A DNA stretch of 36,954 nt from Deltaproteobacteria bacterium. Lineage in GTDB: Bacteria; Desulfobacterota; Desulfobulbia; Desulfobulbales; VMSU01. The stretch's first letter is position 1, and each line of letters starts with the position of its first letter. Shown here one piece after another: positions 27,893-36,954 of this stretch. Made by a program: the position numbers and the translations under genes. A model generated the notes under the pieces. The model saw only the letters and a list, made by a program, of their open reading frames with translations. It searched no databases and was not told the DNA's origin. Location: assembly GCA_021789795.1 (NCBI GenBank), contig JAJYJA010000002.1, positions 1 through 36,954 on the forward strand, given 5' to 3'.

Positions 27893-30223
27893 TTATCGCC
27901 TCTCGGCCCTGGCCTCCACCTCGGTCCACACCGGCCCCTTGACCGTATCGACCACCGCGATTCCCTGGCGCACCAGTTCGTCACGCACCCCGTCCGCCCG
28001 GGCCCAGTCCTTGGCCAGCCGCGCCTGTTCCCGCTCGGCGATCAACCGGTCGATCTCCGGGGCCAGGGGGCACTCTTGCAGCCTGAGCACCTCGACGACC
28101 TCGTTTACCCGGCCCAGGGCCTCCAGGATATAGGTCTTCTGATCCCGGTCCAACTGGCCCTGACTCAAGACCGGATTCATCCGCTTCACGAAGTCGAACA
28201 GGGCCGCCAGGGCCCGGGAGATGTTCAAGTCGTCGTCCAAGGCGGCGAAGAAACCCTCCTCCATCTCGGTGACGTAGGTGGCCACCTGGGGATGCGGCAG
28301 GCCGAGCGGCAGACAGATCAGCTTGCGGGTGAACTCATCCAGCCGCTTTAGGTTCTTCTGGGCCGCGGTCAGACGTTTGGGCGAGAAATCGATCACCTTC
28401 CGGTAGTGGGTGGAGAGCAAAAAGAACCTGACCTCCCGGCCGGTGTAACCCTGTTGCAACAACTCCCGCAGGGTGACGGCGTTGCCCCGGTGCATCTTCT
28501 TGCCGTCCACCAGCACCATCTCGCTGTGCAGCCAGAAGCGGGAGAGGGGCTTACCGGTGATGGCGCAGGCGATGGCGTTTTCGTTCTCGTGGTGCGGGAA
28601 GATCAGGTTGCAGCCGCTGGTGTGGATGTCCATCGTCTCCCCCAGGTAGTGGAGGGTCATGGCGGCGCACTCCACATGCCAGCCGGGCCGGACGTTACCG
28701 AACTCGCTCTCGAAGAATATCCCCCGCTTCAACTCGGCTAGAGTCGAGCGCTTGAGCAGGGTGAAATCCTGAGGGTTGTCCTTGGCGTAGTCGTCGAGAT
28801 CAACCGTCTTGCCCACCTGGATCTTGCTCAGATCGACCCGTGACAACTTGCCGTACTCGGGGAACTTGGAGATATCGAAGTACACCGAACCGTGCTTGGC
28901 GTAGGCGTAACCCTTCTTTATCAGTTGGGCGCTCAAATCGATCATGGCCTCGACATGCTCGGAGGCCTTGGGATAGCCGGTGGCGGGGCGCACCCCGAGC
29001 TGACCCATGTCCTCGTGGAAGGCGTCGATGTAGAAGCCGGTGAACTCGGAAAGCTCCTGGCCCTGAGCGATGGCGCCGTTGATGGTGTTGTCGTCCAGGT
29101 CGGTAAAGTTCATGAAGAACTTGACCTCCAGACCCCGGGCGGCCAGCACCCGCCGCACCAGATCGGCGAACACGAAACGCCGGCAGTGGCCAAGGTTGGC
29201 GTACTCGTAGGCGGTGGGTCCACAGGCGTAGAAGGTGGCCTCACCCTCCCGCTGGGGGGCGAAGACCTCCTTCTTGCGGGACCAGGTGTTGTAGAACCGC
29301 AAGGCCCGGGACGGCTTGGCCTCGGGCTCGGCGGCGGAGAACAGGGAGGTACTCAGGTATTTCTCCCCCCCGTCCGGGAAGATGACCACGATCACCCCCG
29401 CCTGGATCTGCCGGGCCCTGGTCAGGGCGGCGCACATGGCGGCCCCCGAGCTCATGCCCACCAACAGACCCTCCTTGCGGGCCAGGAGCCGGGCGGTGGC
29501 AAAGGCCTCCTCGTCCGGGACGTTGATGATCTGAAAGACCTTATTCTTGTCGAAAATCCCCGGGCAGTAGGACTCCTTCAGATTCTTCAGGCCCTGAATC
29601 TTGTGGTTCGAAAACGGCTCCATGGCCGTCACCCGCACCTCGGGATGGTGGTCGGCAAAGTACTGGCACAGACCCATCACCGTGCCGGTGGTGCCCAGGG
29701 TGGCGACCACGTCGGTCACCCTCCCCTCGGTCTGCCGCCAGATCTCCGGCCCGGTGTGGTGATAGTGGGCCCGCCAGTTGGCCTCGTTGTTAAACTGGTC
29801 GGTCAAAAAATAGCGGTCCGGGTGCTGCCGGGCCAGGGCGTAGGCCTGCTCGATGGCCCCGTCGGTACCCTTCTTGGCTGGGGTGAGCAGGATCTCGGCC
29901 CCGAAGGCGGTCATGATCTGGCGGCGTTCGACGCTCGCCGACTCGGGCATGATGAGCTGGCAGCGGTAGCCCTTGACCGCGCAGACCATGGCCAGTCCGA
30001 TGCCGGTGTTGCCGCTGGTGGCCTCCAGCACCGTCTTGTCCGGGGTCAGCTCCCCGGACTGCTCCGCCGCCTCGATCATCGACAGGGCGATGCGCTCCTT
30101 GACCGAACCGGCGGGGTTGAAGGACTCCACCTTGGCGTAGATGGTCACCCCAGGATAGGGGTTGAGCCGCTGGATCGGAACGATGGGGGTGTTGCCGATA
30201 TAGTCGAGGATGGTCTTCTTCAT
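27893..30223 (-). CDS. fusion: cysteine synthase (CysM-like) with cysteinyl-tRNA synthetase-like domain
   Basis: The protein has 776 aa, one continuous frame. Residues 1-300 are a PLP-dependent cysteine synthase: K42 in GSVKERIA is the expected PLP lysine, TSGNTG is at 69-74, and GTTGTVMG at 177-184 resembles CysM more than CysK. Residues of about 306-776 are CysRS-like. The zinc ligands are kept (C334 in CGPT, C519 in PGWHVEC, and H/E in FPHHENE 542-548). The HIGH motif reads NLGH (343-346), and KMSKS is replaced by KMHRG (576-580) with two residues missing before GN. Aminoacylation may therefore be weakened or changed. The start lies 7 nt from the T-tract of the dsr terminator with no clear ribosome site. 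Cysteine supply could be channelled to tRNA or to persulfide chemistry; both are inference. Confidence 0.9.
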   Translation of the reverse strand: MKKTILDYIGNTPIVPIQRLNPYPGVTIYAKVESFNPAGSVKERIALSMIEAAEQSGELTPDKTVLEATSGNTGIGLAMVCAVKGYRCQLIMPESASVERRQIMTAFGAEILLTPAKKGTDGAIEQAYALARQHPDRYFLTDQFNNEANWRAHYHHTGPEIWRQTEGRVTDVVATLGTTGTVMGLCQYFADHHPEVRVTAMEPFSNHKIQGLKNLKESYCPGIFDKNKVFQIINVPDEEAFATARLLARKEGLLVGMSSGAAMCAALTRARQIQAGVIVVIFPDGGEKYLSTSLFSAAEPEAKPSRALRFYNTWSRKKEVFAPQREGEATFYACGPTAYEYANLGHCRRFVFADLVRRVLAARGLEVKFFMNFTDLDDNTINGAIAQGQELSEFTGFYIDAFHEDMGQLGVRPATGYPKASEHVEAMIDLSAQLIKKGYAYAKHGSVYFDISKFPEYGKLSRVDLSKIQVGKTVDLDDYAKDNPQDFTLLKRSTLAELKRGIFFESEFGNVRPGWHVECAAMTLHYLGETMDIHTSGCNLIFPHHENENAIACAITGKPLSRFWLHSEMVLVDGKKMHRGNAVTLRELLQQGYTGREVRFFLLSTHYRKVIDFSPKRLTAAQKNLKRLDEFTRKLICLPLGLPHPQVATYVTEMEEGFFAALDDDLNISRALAALFDFVKRMNPVLSQGQLDRDQKTYILEALGRVNEVVEVLRLQECPLAPEIDRLIAEREQARLAKDWARADGVRDELVRQGIAVVDTVKGPVWTEVEARAERR

Positions 30224-30292: not shown

Positions 30293-31447
30293 TTAAGCCT
30301 CTTTGGCCTGCACCGAGATGGCGATCTTGTAGAGAATCGTCAGAATCAAGGCCCCGGCGGCCCAGACCGCCAGGCTGATGCCGATCTCGATCACCGTCGG
30401 GTAGTATTCGGTCACCCGGTCGAAGGGGTTGGGCACGAAGCCGCCCAGCACCATACCCACACCCTTGTCGATCCACAGGGAGAGGAAGAGCATGGCGCAG
30501 CTCAAGGCGAAGGTGCCCTCGTTGCGCTTGATCTGCGGGAAGAGCAGCATGGTGGTGGCGATCAGGCCGATGGTCAAAGAAAACCGCATCGGCAGCACCA
30601 GGTTGTTGTGGCCATCCAGGCCCCAGAACAGGTAGTCCAGGGTGTGCATGTGGCCGGGGATGCGGCTGTAGTAGGCGACGAAGAATTCCAACCCCAGGAA
30701 GAAGAAGTTGGCCAGGGCGGCGTAGGTGATGATGGTGCCGAGCTTCTGAAAGGCCTTATCCCCGGCGTCGAAATTGGCCACTCGCTTCAAGACCATGGCG
30801 ATCAGCACCAGCAGGCTAGGCCCGGCGGCGAAGGCCGAGGCCAGGAAGCGGGGGGCGAGGATGGCGGTCAGCCAGAAGTGGCGGCCCGGCAGACCGCAGT
30901 ACAGGAAGGCGGTAACGGTATGGATACTGAAGGCCCAGGGGATGGAGAGGTAGATAAAGGGCTTGACCCAGTGGGGATAGTGCACCCCCTTGTTGTGGGA
31001 GTTGAGGATCACCCAGCCGCAGATGGCGTTTAGAAACAGGTAGCCGTTCAAGACGATCATGTCCCAAAAGAGCATGGAGTGAGGGGTCGGGTGCAGGAGG
31101 ACGTTCATGATCCGCATCGGCTGGCCGAGATCGGCGGTGATGAACATGATGCACATGGCCACCGCGGCGATGGCCATGAACTCACCCAGGATGGTGATCT
31201 TGCCAAAGGCCTTGAAGTCGTGGATGTAATAGGGCAGCACCAGCATCACGCCCCCGGCGGCCACCCCGACCATGAAGGTGAACTGGGCGATATAGATGCC
31301 CCACGACACGTCCCGGCTCATGCCGGTGGCGCCAAGACCGTAATTAAACTGATAGAGGTAGAACAGCCCGCCGATGGTGATCACCCCCAGCAGGAAGAAA
31401 ATCCAGGCCCAATACTTGTTGCTTCCTACGAGCGCCTTCTCTAGCAT
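30293..31447 (-). CDS. dsrP: DsrP, NrfD-family menaquinone-interacting membrane subunit
   Basis: The protein has 384 aa with about ten membrane helices. It belongs to the NrfD/PsrC family and is the integral quinone-reactive subunit of the DsrMKJOP complex, which links the menaquinone pool to DsrC/sulfite reduction. It starts MLEKALVGSNKYW and includes GMSRDVSWGIYIAQFTFMVGVAAGG, the usual first quinone-site region. The ribosome site AAGGTGA overlaps the dsrO stop codon (9 bp apart). It is the last gene of the operon and is followed by a terminator. Confidence 0.93.
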   Translation of the reverse strand: MLEKALVGSNKYWAWIFFLLGVITIGGLFYLYQFNYGLGATGMSRDVSWGIYIAQFTFMVGVAAGGVMLVLPYYIHDFKAFGKITILGEFMAIAAVAMCIMFITADLGQPMRIMNVLLHPTPHSMLFWDMIVLNGYLFLNAICGWVILNSHNKGVHYPHWVKPFIYLSIPWAFSIHTVTAFLYCGLPGRHFWLTAILAPRFLASAFAAGPSLLVLIAMVLKRVANFDAGDKAFQKLGTIITYAALANFFFLGLEFFVAYYSRIPGHMHTLDYLFWGLDGHNNLVLPMRFSLTIGLIATTMLLFPQIKRNEGTFALSCAMLFLSLWIDKGVGMVLGGFVPNPFDRVTEYYPTVIEIGISLAVWAAGALILTILYKIAISVQAKEA

Positions 31448-31456
31448 ATCGTCACC

Positions 31457-32320
31457 TTAAATGATGTAGAACACGGAAGGTTTTGTCCCGGCCGCCGAAT
31501 TACGCTGGATGGTAAAGTTGGCGTTCAATACCTTGGCGATCTCGGAGTTGGGGTCGTTGATGTTGCCGAAGACCATGGCCTTGGTATCGCCGGTGGCCTC
31601 GACGCAGGCCGGCGGCTTGCCGACCGCCAGCCGTTCCGGGCAGAAGTTACACTTCTCGACCACGCCCCGCATCCGGGTGGGATAGTTGGGATTCAGGCCG
31701 TGCTTGAAGAACTTGTAGTTGCCGTTGGCGTACTGCTCCCGGGGATTGCGCCAGTTGAAGCTGCGGGCCCCGTACGGACAGGCGGCCATGCAGAAGCGGC
31801 AGCCGATGCAGCGGTGGAAGTCCATAATCACCACCCCCTTGTCGTTCTTGAAGGTCGCCTGGGTGGGGCAGGCCCGCACGCAGGGCGGGTTGGCGCAGTG
31901 ATTACAGGTGAGTAGCACCGGCAGGTCGTTTAGCCCGGCGTTACGCTTGTACTGGCTGGCGTCCGGGAAGCTGTGCTCGTAGTCGTCAACCCATATCCAC
32001 TTGATCTCATCCTTGGGGTTGCCGTAGTCCGGGACGTTGTGCTCGTAGTGGCAGGCATTGATGCACTTCTCGGCCAGACCCTTGTTGGCGGCGAACTTGG
32101 GGATGTCGATCACCATGCCGTACTGAAAGGCGGTCTCCGCCTCCTGGTGGCCGCCCTGCTCGGGGGCGCCATGCCCGGCCGCCGTCTCCCCCCCGCCAGC
32201 CCCCTCTTCCGAGGCCAAGGCGTTACCCTTGAGCAGCTGGGTGAAGGCTGACGAGGCCCCCAGGCCAGCGACAGCGGAGAGGCCGGCGATCTTTAGGAAA
32301 TTTCTTCTCTTAACATCCAT
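31457..32320 (-). CDS. dsrO: DsrO, periplasmic four-cluster ferredoxin-like subunit
   Basis: The protein has 287 aa from ATG 32320 (GGAGG 7 nt upstream). The start overlaps the dsrJ stop by one base (TAATG). A twin-arginine signal (RRNFLK at about 5-10) sends the folded protein to the periplasm. Iron-sulfur ligand sets are CINACHYEH, CNHCANPPCVRACP, CIGCRFCMAACPYGA and CNFCPERLAVGKPPACVEAT, as in DsrO/NrfC-like proteins carrying several 4Fe-4S clusters. Residues of about 37-62 after the signal are a Gly/Glu/His-rich low-complexity linker (EEGAGGGETAAGHGAPEQGG), which looks longer than needed and may be variable. It passes electrons between DsrJ and DsrP. Confidence 0.93.
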   Translation of the reverse strand: MDVKRRNFLKIAGLSAVAGLGASSAFTQLLKGNALASEEGAGGGETAAGHGAPEQGGHQEAETAFQYGMVIDIPKFAANKGLAEKCINACHYEHNVPDYGNPKDEIKWIWVDDYEHSFPDASQYKRNAGLNDLPVLLTCNHCANPPCVRACPTQATFKNDKGVVIMDFHRCIGCRFCMAACPYGARSFNWRNPREQYANGNYKFFKHGLNPNYPTRMRGVVEKCNFCPERLAVGKPPACVEATGDTKAMVFGNINDPNSEIAKVLNANFTIQRNSAAGTKPSVFYII

Positions 32321-32700
32321 TAGTTTGCCTCCTTCTTCGGCTGGAAATGACAATCCCAACAAAAAGGATCAACCGAGGCGTAGGTGTGACACTCGTCACA
32401 GAATTTCTTCCGGTCCGGATGGCACTTCATGCAGCCCATCTGCAGGCTCTTGGCATAGGGCTTACCCTCGACATCGATCAGCTTCCGCTTCTCCTCCCGC
32501 ACCACCTCGTTGCGCCAGTTGTCGAGCAACACCATGTGCGAGGTCCGCATGTAGGCGATGTCGGCGACGCATTTCTTGCTCAAGGTGGGCTTTTCCAGCT
32601 TGGGCACATGCTGGGCGTGCACCAGGTCGTACCACACAGGGAAGGTTACGATCGCGACAAAAATAGCCAGTCCGGTCAGTACTTTTCCTTTATCATACAT
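32320..32700 (-). CDS. dsrJ: DsrJ, periplasmic triheme cytochrome c
   Basis: The protein has 126 aa. A single N-terminal helix (about 8-28) anchors it. Three CxxCH haem sites are seen: CMKCH (90-94), CDECH (101-105) and CWDCH (114-118). C44 is a candidate for the Cys axial haem ligand reported for DsrJ. ATG 32700 is preferred because GAAGGG lies 8 nt upstream; ATG 32706 overlaps the dsrK stop (TGATG) and is possible. The protein lies between DsrK and DsrO in the operon. Confidence 0.92.
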   Translation of the reverse strand: MYDKGKVLTGLAIFVAIVTFPVWYDLVHAQHVPKLEKPTLSKKCVADIAYMRTSHMVLLDNWRNEVVREEKRKLIDVEGKPYAKSLQMGCMKCHPDRKKFCDECHTYASVDPFCWDCHFQPKKEAN

Positions 32701-32705
32701 TGGCA

Positions 32706-34349
32706 TCACCCTTCCATCCCTTCAAGGGGCTCAAACCGCAGGCCCGATTCCCGTTCTTTCTCCCCATCCATAACCAGGGCGTTGCCCACCAGCTCCGACA
32801 CCCCGCACACCTGGGTGCCTGGCACCCAGAAATCTACCAGGTTAGTCAGGGTGGCACGGTCGATGGCGCAGACGCAGGACAGGGTGTTGACATCGTGCTT
32901 GTCCTTGACAAACTGGACGGCGTTGGCCCGCGGCAGACCGGAGCGCATCCGGAGATCCATGATCTCGCCGGTGTTCAAACCGGTGCCGGAACCGCAGCAG
33001 AAGGTGGACTCGCGGATGGTGTTCTCCGGCATCTCGTAGAAGTTGTTGGCCACGTTCTTTATGACGTAGCGTGGCTCCTCCAGCAGACCCATGGCCCGGG
33101 CGGGGTTGCAGGAGTCGTGGAAGGTGACCCGGCGGTGGTTGTTGCGGCTGGGGTCGAGCTTCAGCTTGCCGTGCCGGATGAGGTCGGCGGTGAACTCGCT
33201 GATGTGTACCATCTTGGTGGAGGCGGCGTTTTCAAACACCGTGCCGGTGATCGGCGACTTGGGCACCTGCAGGAAGTCCGCCGGGCCGTTCATGGTGTCC
33301 ATGTATTGGTGCAGCACCCGCCACATGTGGCCGCACTCGCCGCCCAGGATCCACTTGACCCCCAGGCGCTTGGCCTCGGCGTACATCTTGGCGTTTAGGC
33401 GCTTCATCAACTCGTTGTTGGTGAACAGGCCGAAGTTGCCGCCCTCGGAGGCGTAGGTGCTCAGGGTGTAATCCAGGCCGATGTGCTCGAACAGCAGCAG
33501 GTAGCCCATGAAGGTGTAGATGCCGGGATCGGCGAAGAGGTCGGCGGAGGGGGTGATGAACAGCACCTCGGCGCCCTTGCGGTTCCAGCTCGGGGTGATG
33601 CGGATACCGGTGATGGACTCGATGTCGTCACAGAGGTATTCGGCGTTCTCCTTCAAGGTGTGGGGCTGCAAGCCCATGTGGTTGCCGGTGCGGTTGGAGT
33701 TGGCCGCCGGCTCCAGGATCCAGTTGGTGTTGACCCCCACCAGGTGCAGCAGCTCGCGGGCGATCATGGTGATCTCGGCGGTGTCGATGCCGTAGGGGCA
33801 GAACACCGAGCAGCGACGACACTCGGTGCACTGGTAGTAGTACATGAACCACTCCTTCAGCACCCCGAAGGTCATCTCCCTGGCCCCGGCCAGTTTACCC
33901 AAAATCTTGCCCGCCTTGGTAAACTCGTTACGGTAGATGGAGCGCATCAGCTCGGCCCGCAGCACCGGCATGTTCTTGGGGTCGCCGGTGCCCAGGAAGA
34001 AGTGGCACTTGTCGGCGCAGGCCCCGCAGCGCACGCAGCAGTCCATGAAGATCTTCAGGGAACGAAACTTATCCAGCCGCTCCTTGAAGCCGTTGATGAT
34101 GATCTCCTTCCAGTTTTCGGGCAGCTTCCAGTCATCGCTTTCGATGTTCCATACCCTGGGCTCCCCGAACTTGCCGGGCAGGGATTTGGAGTGGTACGCC
34201 ACCATCTCCGGCTTGCCGGGGTAACAATAGTTCCCGGGTTTAAACACCGCGGGGATATCCCACCAGTCCTGGGTTGGAATCGCTCCCGTCATCAGGGACG
34301 GCTCCCGGGCGACACTCACACCTAGTTCGTCTGCTTTTTGATTTGCCAT
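32706..34349 (-). CDS. dsrK: DsrK, cytoplasmic iron-sulfur (HdrD-like) subunit
   Basis: The protein has 547 aa from ATG 34349 (AAGGA 8 nt upstream; TTG 34355 is an alternative). It is the catalytic cytoplasmic subunit of DsrMKJOP, thought to act on DsrC trisulfide. Two 4Fe-4S sets lie at about 105-116 (CVRCGACADKC) and 174-184 (CTECRRCSVFC). Two CCG domains follow: ILGGECGHMW in the first, and HDSCNPARAMG with TFCCGSGTG in the second, the type that holds a noncubane cluster in HdrB/D proteins. A Cys near the C-terminus (CVCAID) may be a further ligand. Confidence 0.95.
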   Translation of the reverse strand: MANQKADELGVSVAREPSLMTGAIPTQDWWDIPAVFKPGNYCYPGKPEMVAYHSKSLPGKFGEPRVWNIESDDWKLPENWKEIIINGFKERLDKFRSLKIFMDCCVRCGACADKCHFFLGTGDPKNMPVLRAELMRSIYRNEFTKAGKILGKLAGAREMTFGVLKEWFMYYYQCTECRRCSVFCPYGIDTAEITMIARELLHLVGVNTNWILEPAANSNRTGNHMGLQPHTLKENAEYLCDDIESITGIRITPSWNRKGAEVLFITPSADLFADPGIYTFMGYLLLFEHIGLDYTLSTYASEGGNFGLFTNNELMKRLNAKMYAEAKRLGVKWILGGECGHMWRVLHQYMDTMNGPADFLQVPKSPITGTVFENAASTKMVHISEFTADLIRHGKLKLDPSRNNHRRVTFHDSCNPARAMGLLEEPRYVIKNVANNFYEMPENTIRESTFCCGSGTGLNTGEIMDLRMRSGLPRANAVQFVKDKHDVNTLSCVCAIDRATLTNLVDFWVPGTQVCGVSELVGNALVMDGEKERESGLRFEPLEGMEG

Positions 34350-34397
34350 TGTCAATATCCTTACGTGCTGAAGTTTCCTTCTTGCTTCGGGCTTCCG

Positions 34398-35417
34398 TTA
34401 TTCAGCGGCCGGGGTTTCTGCCGGCAACTCCTTATCCACCGGGATCCCGGCCTCGACCATGAACTCCCTAAACTCGTCCTCGTAGGAGGCATAGGAGTGC
34501 GGCTTGAGGTTCGGGTCGTTCCAGGGGTTGATGTGGCGCACCATGCGGCTGTTGTTGGCCAGATTCCGGGTCGGGCTCATGAATACCCCGCCCATATGCA
34601 TCAGCTTGCTGAACGGAAAATAGACCAAGAGGGTGCAGACCAGGAAGAGGTGGACGTAGAAGACCGTGCCCAGATCGCCCACGATCACCGGCTTGAAGGT
34701 GGCCAGGCCCACCGCCAGCTGCTTGATGTTGACCACGTCCGCCCGAGTGAGGTAACGCATGGTCATCCCGCTCAAGGCGATGGCCAGGATCAGGAACAGG
34801 GGGAAATAGTCGGCGGGCAGGGAGATGTAGCGGACGTTGGTGAGCAGCAGCCGGCGCAGGAGAAGCAGGGTAATCGCCCCCACGATCACCAGGTCGGACT
34901 GGTAGAGATGGGGCAGGCCGATCTGCAAGAAGCCATCAAAGAACTCCAGGATCTTGACAAAGAAGGGAATGGGGTCGGCAAACAGCCGGATGTGCCTCAG
35001 CACGATCACCAGGAAGGCGTAATGAAAGAGCAGGCCAAACAACCACAGGTACTTGCTGGAGCCGTAACGCAGCTTGGGGCCGTCATAGACGTCGGCCTGG
35101 GTGTTGCGGAACAGGGAGCGGAACAAGAAGACCTCCAGGAACATCCTCACCGTCACCCCGAAGGAGGTGGAGGGGTTGTCGAAGCAGGCCTGTTCGATCC
35201 AGGGCAGGGAGTTGGCCTGGCCGCAGGTGGTGGGGATGCGGAACGGCACCGGCGACTTGGCCCAGCCCACCACCTTGTTGATAAAGCCGCCCAGAAAGAT
35301 CAGGATGGCCAGGTAGGGGAAGACGATGCCAAACAGGGGCTCCATCCCAGCCCGGGAGCCGATGGTGGCGATGACGATCAGACCAAGGACGGCGACGAAG
35401 GGATACAGGATTTTCAT
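34398..35417 (-). CDS. dsrM: DsrM, membrane b-type cytochrome (NarI-like)
   Basis: The protein has 339 aa. An N-terminal double helix (about 3-50) precedes the NarI-like four- to five-helix core (LWLFGLLFHYAFLVIVLRHIR, FYVHLFLVCTLLVYFPFSKLMHMGG), with paired His residues suited to two b haems. A short cytoplasmic tail is charged (SYEDEFREFMVEAG). It exchanges electrons between the menaquinone pool and DsrK. The start has AGGTCG about 8 nt upstream. The 130-bp region before it has a 12-bp near-palindrome AGTTGACCAACT (35442-35453) and a GACGGC/GCCGTC hairpin (35494-35512), but no clear promoter. Confidence 0.93.
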   Translation of the reverse strand: MKILYPFVAVLGLIVIATIGSRAGMEPLFGIVFPYLAILIFLGGFINKVVGWAKSPVPFRIPTTCGQANSLPWIEQACFDNPSTSFGVTVRMFLEVFLFRSLFRNTQADVYDGPKLRYGSSKYLWLFGLLFHYAFLVIVLRHIRLFADPIPFFVKILEFFDGFLQIGLPHLYQSDLVIVGAITLLLLRRLLLTNVRYISLPADYFPLFLILAIALSGMTMRYLTRADVVNIKQLAVGLATFKPVIVGDLGTVFYVHLFLVCTLLVYFPFSKLMHMGGVFMSPTRNLANNSRMVRHINPWNDPNLKPHSYASYEDEFREFMVEAGIPVDKELPAETPAAE

Positions 35418-35547: not shown

Positions 35548-36102
35548 CTAACAGTCCCGGATAACTTTCAGCTCGACCCTCTCGGCCTGGCTGTCGCCGC
35601 CCAGTGCCGACGACGGGCAGCGCCCGGCGGCCAAGATGTGGTTGCCCTTCTTGTATTCGCTCAGTTTCACCTCGTGCAACAGCTCCCGGTCTTCCACATA
35701 CAGGTCGAAGAGCTTCAAGGCCAGGCGGTCGATCTTGGCGGCCAACTCGGACCACTCTTGGCCGGCGGCCAGCAGGGTCTCCCAGCCCAGTTGCTCGACC
35801 AATACCGGTTTCAGCTGGAAGACAAAGCCCACCGCCTGCGAGGGGGTGAAGGTCTGCACCGAGCGCAGCTTGATGAACTGGGCCAGCTCCGCCGGCATCT
35901 CGCCCGCCGGGGCATCCCCCACCAGTTGCTCGTAGATCGCCGTAAGCCCGGTCTTGGCGGCAAATCCCAAGGGGTTGGCGAAACGGTCCTTCTGGCGCTT
36001 GAAGAAGCTGGCCCCGTCGGCGGAGTAGCTGGCCAGCACCGCCTCGATCCACCGCGCAACGATTTTCGACTTTTTCTCCGCCAGCTTGTCCTGAAAGCTC
36101 AT
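35548..36102 (-). CDS. RsbRD_N-domain protein upstream of dsrMKJOP
   Basis: The protein has 184 aa. The N-terminal 140 residues resemble the RsbRD N-terminal helical sensor fold (SKIVARWIEAVLASYSADGASFFKRQKDRFANPLG is its usual opening). No STAS or kinase domain follows. Instead there is a short charged tail with two Cys (CPSS and a C-terminal Cys). Proteins of this kind are, to my knowledge, often found directly upstream of dsrM in sulfate reducers, and a sensory role for the operon is inferred. AAGGTGG lies about 9 nt before the ATG. Spacing to dsrM is 130 bp. Confidence 0.75.
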   Translation of the reverse strand: MSFQDKLAEKKSKIVARWIEAVLASYSADGASFFKRQKDRFANPLGFAAKTGLTAIYEQLVGDAPAGEMPAELAQFIKLRSVQTFTPSQAVGFVFQLKPVLVEQLGWETLLAAGQEWSELAAKIDRLALKLFDLYVEDRELLHEVKLSEYKKGNHILAAGRCPSSALGGDSQAERVELKVIRDC

Positions 36103-36216
36103 ATCGGTAGAACCACCTTCTTTTACTAATTAATTCACACCTTAACAAGATGCGGGTGAATCCTCATTCATCAAAGTGGGTTCAGGGTTATCATGTTTCT
36201 TTTAATTTTTCAACAT

Positions 36217-36254
36217 AAAAAAAGGCTACCCGGCAATAACCCGCCGGGATAGCC
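36217..36254 (-). terminator. Rho-independent terminator facing an unassigned region
   Basis: On the minus strand GGCTATCCCGGC (one bulged base) pairs with GCCGGGTAGCC and is followed by seven T residues (36217-36223). The only minus-strand DNA upstream of it, up to arsR, has no convincing gene. It may end a small RNA or divergent arsR-region transcript. Confidence 0.75.
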
Positions 36255-36382
36255 GATTCACCGCCAGCGACGGGAGTCTTAAGCCTATCGCCAAGGTGCG
36301 GAACCCACCGGTCGTGAGATACGTGGCCGCCTCCTGGCCGCCCCCGCCGCTCACCGGGCAAAATGCCGCTTGCGATCCGCGC

Positions 36383-36410
36383 TTGACATATCCTTTTATC
36401 CGGATATAAT
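36383..36410 (+). promoter_or_regulatory. near-consensus arsR promoter with overlapping operator
   Basis: TTGACA (36383-36388), a 16-bp spacer and TATAAT (36405-36410) are both perfect hexamers. Inverted elements ATATCC (36388-36393) and GGATAT (36402-36407), and the palindrome TATCCGGATA (36397-36406), overlap the spacer and -10, as expected for autoregulation by an ArsR-type repressor. Confidence 0.85.
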
Positions 36411-36417
36411 GCTTGAC

Positions 36418-36810
36418 ATGCGAACCACCGTCCCCCTCTTCAAGGCCCTGGCCGACGAAACCCGGCTGCGCATCCTCGCCCTGCTCGGGCAAGGGGAGCT
36501 CTGCGTCTGCGACCTGACGGCGGCCCTGCAACTCCCCCAGTCAACCGCCTCCCGGCATTTGGCGGTGTTGAAAAACGCTGGCTGGGTGAGCGGCCGTCGG
36601 CAGGGGGTCTGGATGTATTACCGGCTGCTCGACACGGGCGCGGCAAGCCGTATCGCCATGCACAACGCCATCTTGGCCCACCTTGAGGAGTCCACGACGG
36701 CCAGGAGAGACCGGAAAGTTCTAAAAAACCATCTGGCGCAGAAGGCGCAACCCGGCTGCGGCGAAGCGGCGCTGGACAAGGCGGCGCCGGTCAGAAAGTA
36801 CCGGAGGTGA
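36418..36810 (+). CDS. arsR: ArsR-family arsenite-responsive repressor
   Basis: The protein has 130 aa from ATG 36418. The winged-helix domain spans about 5-85 (LADETRLRILALL, LPQSTASRHLAVLKNAGWV). ELCVCDL (27-33) carries the CxC metal-binding pair of E. coli-type ArsR, which senses As(III)/Sb(III). A C-terminal tail contains PGCGE. The promoter's predicted start is at 36416-36418, so the mRNA is probably leaderless; ATG 36409 lies before that point. The ACR3 permease gene begins 3 bp after the stop. Confidence 0.92.
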   Translation: MRTTVPLFKALADETRLRILALLGQGELCVCDLTAALQLPQSTASRHLAVLKNAGWVSGRRQGVWMYYRLLDTGAASRIAMHNAILAHLEESTTARRDRKVLKNHLAQKAQPGCGEAALDKAAPVRKYRR

Positions 36811-36813
36811 ACG

Positions 36814-36954
36814 ATGAATACCACCAGCTCCAAGCGGCTATCCTTTCTCGACCGTTTTCTCACCCTGTGGATCTTCCTGGCCATGTTCACAGGCGTCACG
36901 ACCGGCTGGCTCTACCCCGGCGTCCGCCAGCTGATCAACTCCTTTCAGGTCGGC
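36814..36954 (+). CDS. acr3: ACR3-family arsenite permease, 5' part only
   Basis: The first 47 codons are seen and the gene runs off the right edge. The N-terminus ([19 protein letters not shown], then GWLYPGV) is characteristic of ACR3 arsenite efflux permeases of the BART superfamily. CGGAGG lies 7 nt upstream. With arsR it forms an ars operon. Confidence 0.88.

Follow-up and report, generated by a model that had tools for sequence, protein, structure and literature searches.

The final transfer of electrons in sulfate respiration is carried out by the DsrMKJOP complex; to our knowledge, the complex described so far has five subunits and does not include DsrT. The DsrT protein of Chlorobaculum tepidum has been genetically tested. 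The dsrT gene adjoins dsrM and follows the distribution of DsrMKJOP among bacterial reducers; it also occurs in Chlorobi, and a possible regulation of dsr expression by its product has been suggested (PMC10504309). Operons of the dsrTMKJOP type occur in most sulfate reducers, including Desulfobulbales, and a regulatory role of dsrT is suspected there as well (PMC13047784). Elsewhere the function of DsrT was termed unknown, and the gene was reported to be absent from Pseudomonadota (PMC11406059). In Desulfovibrio, HcpR is the predicted regulator of APS reductase and ATP sulfurylase, DsrAB being outside its predicted regulon (PMC545781); no paper tying a TetR regulator to dsr genes was found in the literature searched.

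The dsrT Gene and the dsrTMKJOP Operon

The window analyzed here is a whole stretch of 36,954 nucleotides from a draft genome of the order Desulfobulbales. An orf at positions 35548–36102 of its minus strand (as are all features below unless stated otherwise) encodes a protein of 184 aa; it starts with ATG, and the sequence AAGGTGG is found 5′ of the start. The protein contains an RsbRD_N domain (PF14361, E = 6.6e-18, 65.8 bits against a cut-off of 24.3) in residues 3–105 (35788–36096), while the Pfam scan revealed no other domain, in particular no STAS, DNA-binding or enzyme domain. It is the only RsbRD_N protein of its genome. The gene is followed, after 130 nt and on the same strand, by dsrM (34398–35417; NF038037), dsrK (32706–34355; NF045796), dsrJ (32320–32709; NF038038), dsrO (31457–32362; NF045797) and dsrP (30293–31447; NF045798), all five of which exceed their NCBIfam cut-offs. 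The dsrT–dsrM gap contains neither a terminator-like site nor RNA structure (z = −0.25).

The position, sequence family and distribution of the gene show that it is dsrT, the head of a dsrTMKJOP operon. The initial annotation had placed an RsbRD_N domain without a STAS partner directly upstream of dsrM, and both the Pfam match and the NCBIfam assignment of DsrM bear this out. A new, unnamed gene was also considered and ruled out, since the name dsrT is already in the literature. It should be mentioned that just 3′ of dsrP the window contains a 776-aa orf (27893–30223) that fuses a PALP enzyme of the cysteine synthase type with a cysteinyl-tRNA synthetase.

Distribution and Gene Order of dsrT

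In total, 198 genomes of the phylum were analyzed, with DsrM counted above its cut-off. Both DsrT and DsrM were revealed in 92 of them, DsrT alone in three, DsrM alone in three and neither in 100 (Fisher p = 1e-48, related genomes not being independent). The dsrT gene lies immediately 5′ of dsrM and on the same strand at 91 of 98 dsrM places, a position that is not due to chance. Four of the other seven places are contig ends (G070, G091, G113 and G135), and in G177 a divergent dsrT copy is located on another contig, close to its end. No dsrT was found in G030 and G067 (L076, L077), where a dsrC-containing cluster and two other genes precede dsrM; these natural dsrMKJOP loci without dsrT are useful controls. 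Within the order of the window, DsrT was found in 93 of 96 genomes.

A scan of named genomes yielded 550 relatives, the best 80 of which come from records named Deltaproteobacteria, Nitrospirota, Clostridia and others. In 77 of these best 80, dsrM is directly 3′ of dsrT. The exceptions are a locus interrupted by a contig end (L092), a locus with the order dsrT-dsrK-J-O-P-dsrM (L090) and a dsrT-dsrK-dsrC locus without dsrM (L086/L079, G004:C270); the latter genome has another dsrT located at dsrM, so that the dsrT at dsrK-dsrC is a second one. At two loci, then, dsrT stays beside dsrK where dsrM is elsewhere, which is a hint.

The gene order, whose conservation across sulfate reducers the initial annotation proposed to check, is conserved both in the phylum and among the best relatives. 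Absence of dsrT from most dsrMKJOP operons, which the same annotation named as evidence against its proposal, is not what we found: nearly every such operon of the phylum has the gene, which is also widespread beyond the phylum. DsrT is a near-universal companion of DsrMKJOP. At the same time, the complex can work without it, because dsrT is missing from the G030 and G067 loci and from Pseudomonadota (PMC11406059).

Fold, Conserved Residues and Stressosome Partners

The AlphaFold2 model of DsrT, built with 42 homologues (pLDDT 86.8), consists entirely of helices, with a globin-like RsbRD_N domain, a long helix in residues 115–151 (35650–35760) and a low-confidence tail past about residue 160. 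The top PDB match in Foldseek was 3zta, the N-terminal domain of the stressosome protein RsbR (probability 0.93, TM 0.55 by target), with an E value of 0.48 that is not significant alone; it was followed by phycobiliproteins and globins, with 2bnl, also an RsbR N-terminal domain, placed lower. Sequence homologues of DsrT were not found in the PDB, where a short FaNPV stretch gave only chance matches, to a capsid protein VP4.

Comparison of 125 sequences revealed that F41, N43 and P44 are invariant and W18, Y26 and Q83 nearly so. The long helix carries the conserved residues D125, F132, R139 and E140. The F41-x-N43-P44 signature marks DsrT and is missing from a STAS-bearing RsbR of the phylum (L078). 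No column of these 125 sequences contains more than 30% His. A haem globin sensor was therefore rejected, as the conserved proximal His is lacking; DsrT is modelled as a helical, globin-like domain without haem, to which a long helix and a disordered tail are attached.

Two STAS matches were revealed in the genome of the window, one RsbV-like and located beside a response-regulator/phosphatase/kinase protein, the other in a locus that, judged from its neighbouring orfs, is Mla-type. An RsbS/RsbT pair was not found in this draft genome (95.5% complete). A complete module, comprising RsbR with STAS, RsbS, RsbT, a second kinase-like protein and a phosphatase, is present in another genome of the phylum (G182:C50, L078), and its DsrT is located at dsrM, apart from this module. 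DsrT therefore works, at least in this genome, without stressosome partners. Membership of DsrT in a stressosome was rejected, as the protein has no STAS domain and neither RsbS nor RsbT was found in this draft genome.

Palindrome and Promoter-Like Element Upstream of dsrT

The region upstream of dsrT contains the palindrome TGAATGAGGATTCA (36157–36170), which comparison identifies as a candidate TetR/YsiA-type operator. It is preceded by a conserved promoter-like element, TTGAAA-N11-ACATGATA (36189–36213), which reads as a −35 box TTGAAA with an extended −10 box TGATAACC. A perfect TGAAT-N4-ATTCA was found 5′ of dsrT in 55 of 75 loci of the order, against 0.1% in shuffled sequences, and is usually located about 43 nt 3′ of the start of the conserved TTGAAA-N11-ACATG(A/C)TA element. 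Over six genomes of the order, 48 occurrences per strand were counted for this pattern, against four for the reversed one. Intergenic copies in genomes of the order lie 5′ of dsrA, dsrC, nuoA, adk, genes of multihaem cytochromes and a TetR-family gene. In the window's own genome the palindrome precedes, besides dsrT, the TetR gene (L273, G000:C101:201-785), nuoA, a Sulf_transp gene and the gene of a multihaem cytochrome. A site matching at 9 of 10 positions is located upstream of dsrA. These sites (36157–36213 of the window and the loci L273, L362, L274, L272 and L276) outline a candidate sulfate-respiration regulon of the order.

At dsrA the palindrome is present in 28 of the 29 loci with full upstream sequence, and in 27 of these 28 it starts 7–10 nt past the −10 box of a TTGACA-N16/17-TAnnnT promoter. 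The TetR/YsiA-like gene has it upstream in 27 of 30 cases (at least 9 of 10 positions; some starts of the TetR genes are approximate), against 0 of 30 coding controls, which were loosely placed windows within the same genes. Stronger evidence than these controls is the constant spacing at dsrA, which was read from the sequence itself. The palindrome is probably a real operator.

Farther upstream, a terminator-like hairpin with a T run (36229–36248) lies 5′ of the dsrT promoter and ends a structured stretch (36225–36365); the 198-nt fold that includes this stretch has z = −3.3. The structure is kept, with a compensatory-looking change, in G222 of the same genus and not in other members of the family; the stretch could be a small RNA. 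No Rfam element matched near dsrT. On the plus strand (36370–36954), a divergent ArsR-family gene has a perfect TTGACA-N16-TATAAT promoter, and the start of a membrane protein 3′ of it looks like an arsenite permease.

A Candidate TetR/YsiA-Like Regulator

The product of the TetR-family gene has a TetR_N and a YsiA-like TetR_C_4 domain. Of 58 genomes of the order, 53 contain a strong orthologue (E below 1e-50). In the complete genome G014 the TetR gene is missing, and the palindrome is gone at both dsrT and dsrA while the dsrA promoter is intact; this genome is a natural deletion test for the pairing of site and regulator. A counterexample is G212, a further complete genome without the gene, in which the dsrA site is still perfect and the dsrT site degraded. 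The drafts G220 and G234 keep their dsrT sites with the TetR gene undetected, and G201 has neither the dsrT site nor the gene. Over 97 genomes, whose lineages are not independent, site and regulator are associated with p = 5e-8; in the set from outside the order alone the association is weak (p = 0.09).

The TetR/YsiA-like protein is the likely ligand of the palindrome, and it is a better candidate for the transcriptional regulator than DsrT. The predicted targets are dsrTMKJOP, dsrAB, dsrC, nuo, a sulfur transporter and cytochromes. A further lead is the resemblance of the palindrome to the FadR box of Bacillus subtilis.

Possible Function of DsrT

The reading that we prefer, with a probability of roughly 0.5, is that DsrT is a cytosolic factor acting directly on DsrMK and is not a transcription factor, the operon being under separate TetR/YsiA-like control. 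DsrT would be a sensor domain of the RsbR N-terminal type, haem-free and globin-like, without STAS output and, here, without stressosome partners. Located in the cytosol, it would act on DsrMK itself, and there most likely on DsrK. As a factor for assembly, stability or allosteric control it would adjust the flow of electrons to DsrC to a signal of the cell. Transcription of dsrTMKJOP in the order would be set by the separate repressor through the TGAAT-N4-ATTCA operator near the start site, a site that would control dsrAB as well; this proposal has good comparative support. Direct action on the complex is preferred to signalling of the RsbR type because the genome lacks an RsbS/RsbT module, and it agrees with the lack of a DNA-binding domain combined with the strict linkage to dsrMK. 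Perhaps DsrK rather than DsrM is the target, as the two loci with dsrT beside dsrK suggest. The initial annotation had also proposed an accessory subunit of DsrMKJOP; an accessory or regulatory role for this complex is the best reading.

DsrT might instead regulate dsr expression by signalling: it would sense a condition, and its partner proteins would relay this to a sigma or transcription factor. In RsbR co-antagonists RsbRD_N serves as the sensor domain, and dsrT is the first gene of the operon; an indirect regulatory role is possible even without a DNA-binding domain, and the literature suggests one on the grounds of homology (PMC10504309, PMC13047784). However, the protein has neither a STAS nor a DNA-binding domain, its genome contains no RsbS/RsbT, and the candidate TetR-type operator already accounts for the control of the operon in the order, which makes this regulator doubtful.

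The cysteine residues bear on a further proposal of the initial annotation, a redox or sulfur sensor; DsrT could use its tail Cys for thiol sensing of this kind or as a partner in sulfur handling. The tail of the protein does contain the two Cys residues noted there, Cys162 and Cys184. Cys162 belongs to a C162-P-S motif (35611–35619) and is retained in 73 of the 74 full-length sequences from the order despite the disordered and otherwise variable tail around it; among the family members checked from outside the order it was found in only three (L010, L066 and L072). The terminal Cys184 (35551–35553) was found in nine sequences, all from the window's own family, and the two-Cys tail is therefore not a general feature. 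Another Cys, at column 138, is present in 43 of 56 sequences of the wider family (a count of 112 of 125 is biased, because this Cys was part of one search pattern), and is absent from about half of the order and from the window protein, which has Asp there.

Conservation of the tail cysteines thus holds for Cys162 within the order and rarely beyond, and they are a lineage feature. The order-wide Cys162 and the additional terminal Cys of the family would fit a thiol sensor, but the tail Cys is missing in most relatives outside the order and the column 138 Cys is missing from the window protein as well as from about half of the order, so that we consider this role unlikely. An in-frame TGA in a relative from G256 (L214) was also considered as a selenocysteine codon and rejected, since this TGA simply ends the gene as its normal stop codon.

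That DsrT is a maturation chaperone dedicated to DsrK or DsrM, serving cofactor insertion or membrane assembly outside the finished complex, is improbable: the strict linkage to dsrMK, the lack of a conserved His and of an enzyme domain and its absence from the described five-subunit complex would agree with it, but the sensor-type fold is atypical for chaperones. Besides, Pseudomonadota sulfur oxidisers mature DsrMK without DsrT (PMC11406059).

Direct action of DsrT on DsrMK can be extended to a specific and very improbable scheme. In it DsrT would work together with DsrK: the globin-like body would dock on DsrMK, and the flexible Cys tail (CPS and, in the family, the terminal Cys) would reach the DsrC-docking site. 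There it would act in the manner of the two-Cys arm of DsrC or in opposition to it, and thereby gate the last step of sulfate respiration.

Comparison with Known Systems

The name and the gene dsrT were already known; new are the reading of DsrT as an RsbR-type sensor free of partners, the order-wide Cys162 and the predicted TetR/YsiA-type regulon of genes for dissimilatory sulfite reduction. The data make two previously vague ideas testable, the action of DsrT on DsrK and a TetR/YsiA-like repressor common to dsrTMKJOP and dsrAB.

With the RsbR/RsbRD stressosome sensors (3zta, 2bnl) DsrT shares the RsbRD_N domain, a globin-like helical fold, the long C-terminal helix and the lack of a conserved His. 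In contrast to them, it has no STAS domain and no RsbS/RsbT neighbours, carries the FxNP signature and is linked to respiration genes. The candidate regulator likewise has the TetR_N and YsiA-like C-terminal domains of the YsiA/FadR-type TetR repressors, while its predicted targets are sulfate-respiration genes instead. Also close is the DsrT of dsrTMKJOP operons in sulfate reducers and green sulfur bacteria, which the window protein resembles in its position directly 5′ of dsrM and in its distribution with DsrMKJOP of the reductive type (PMC13047784, PMC10504309); the likeness to the green sulfur bacterial protein is drawn from the published description. The window protein differs from the described ones by the order-specific CPS Cys and the family-specific terminal Cys. 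It is thus a member of a known gene family with a lineage-specific Cys tail.
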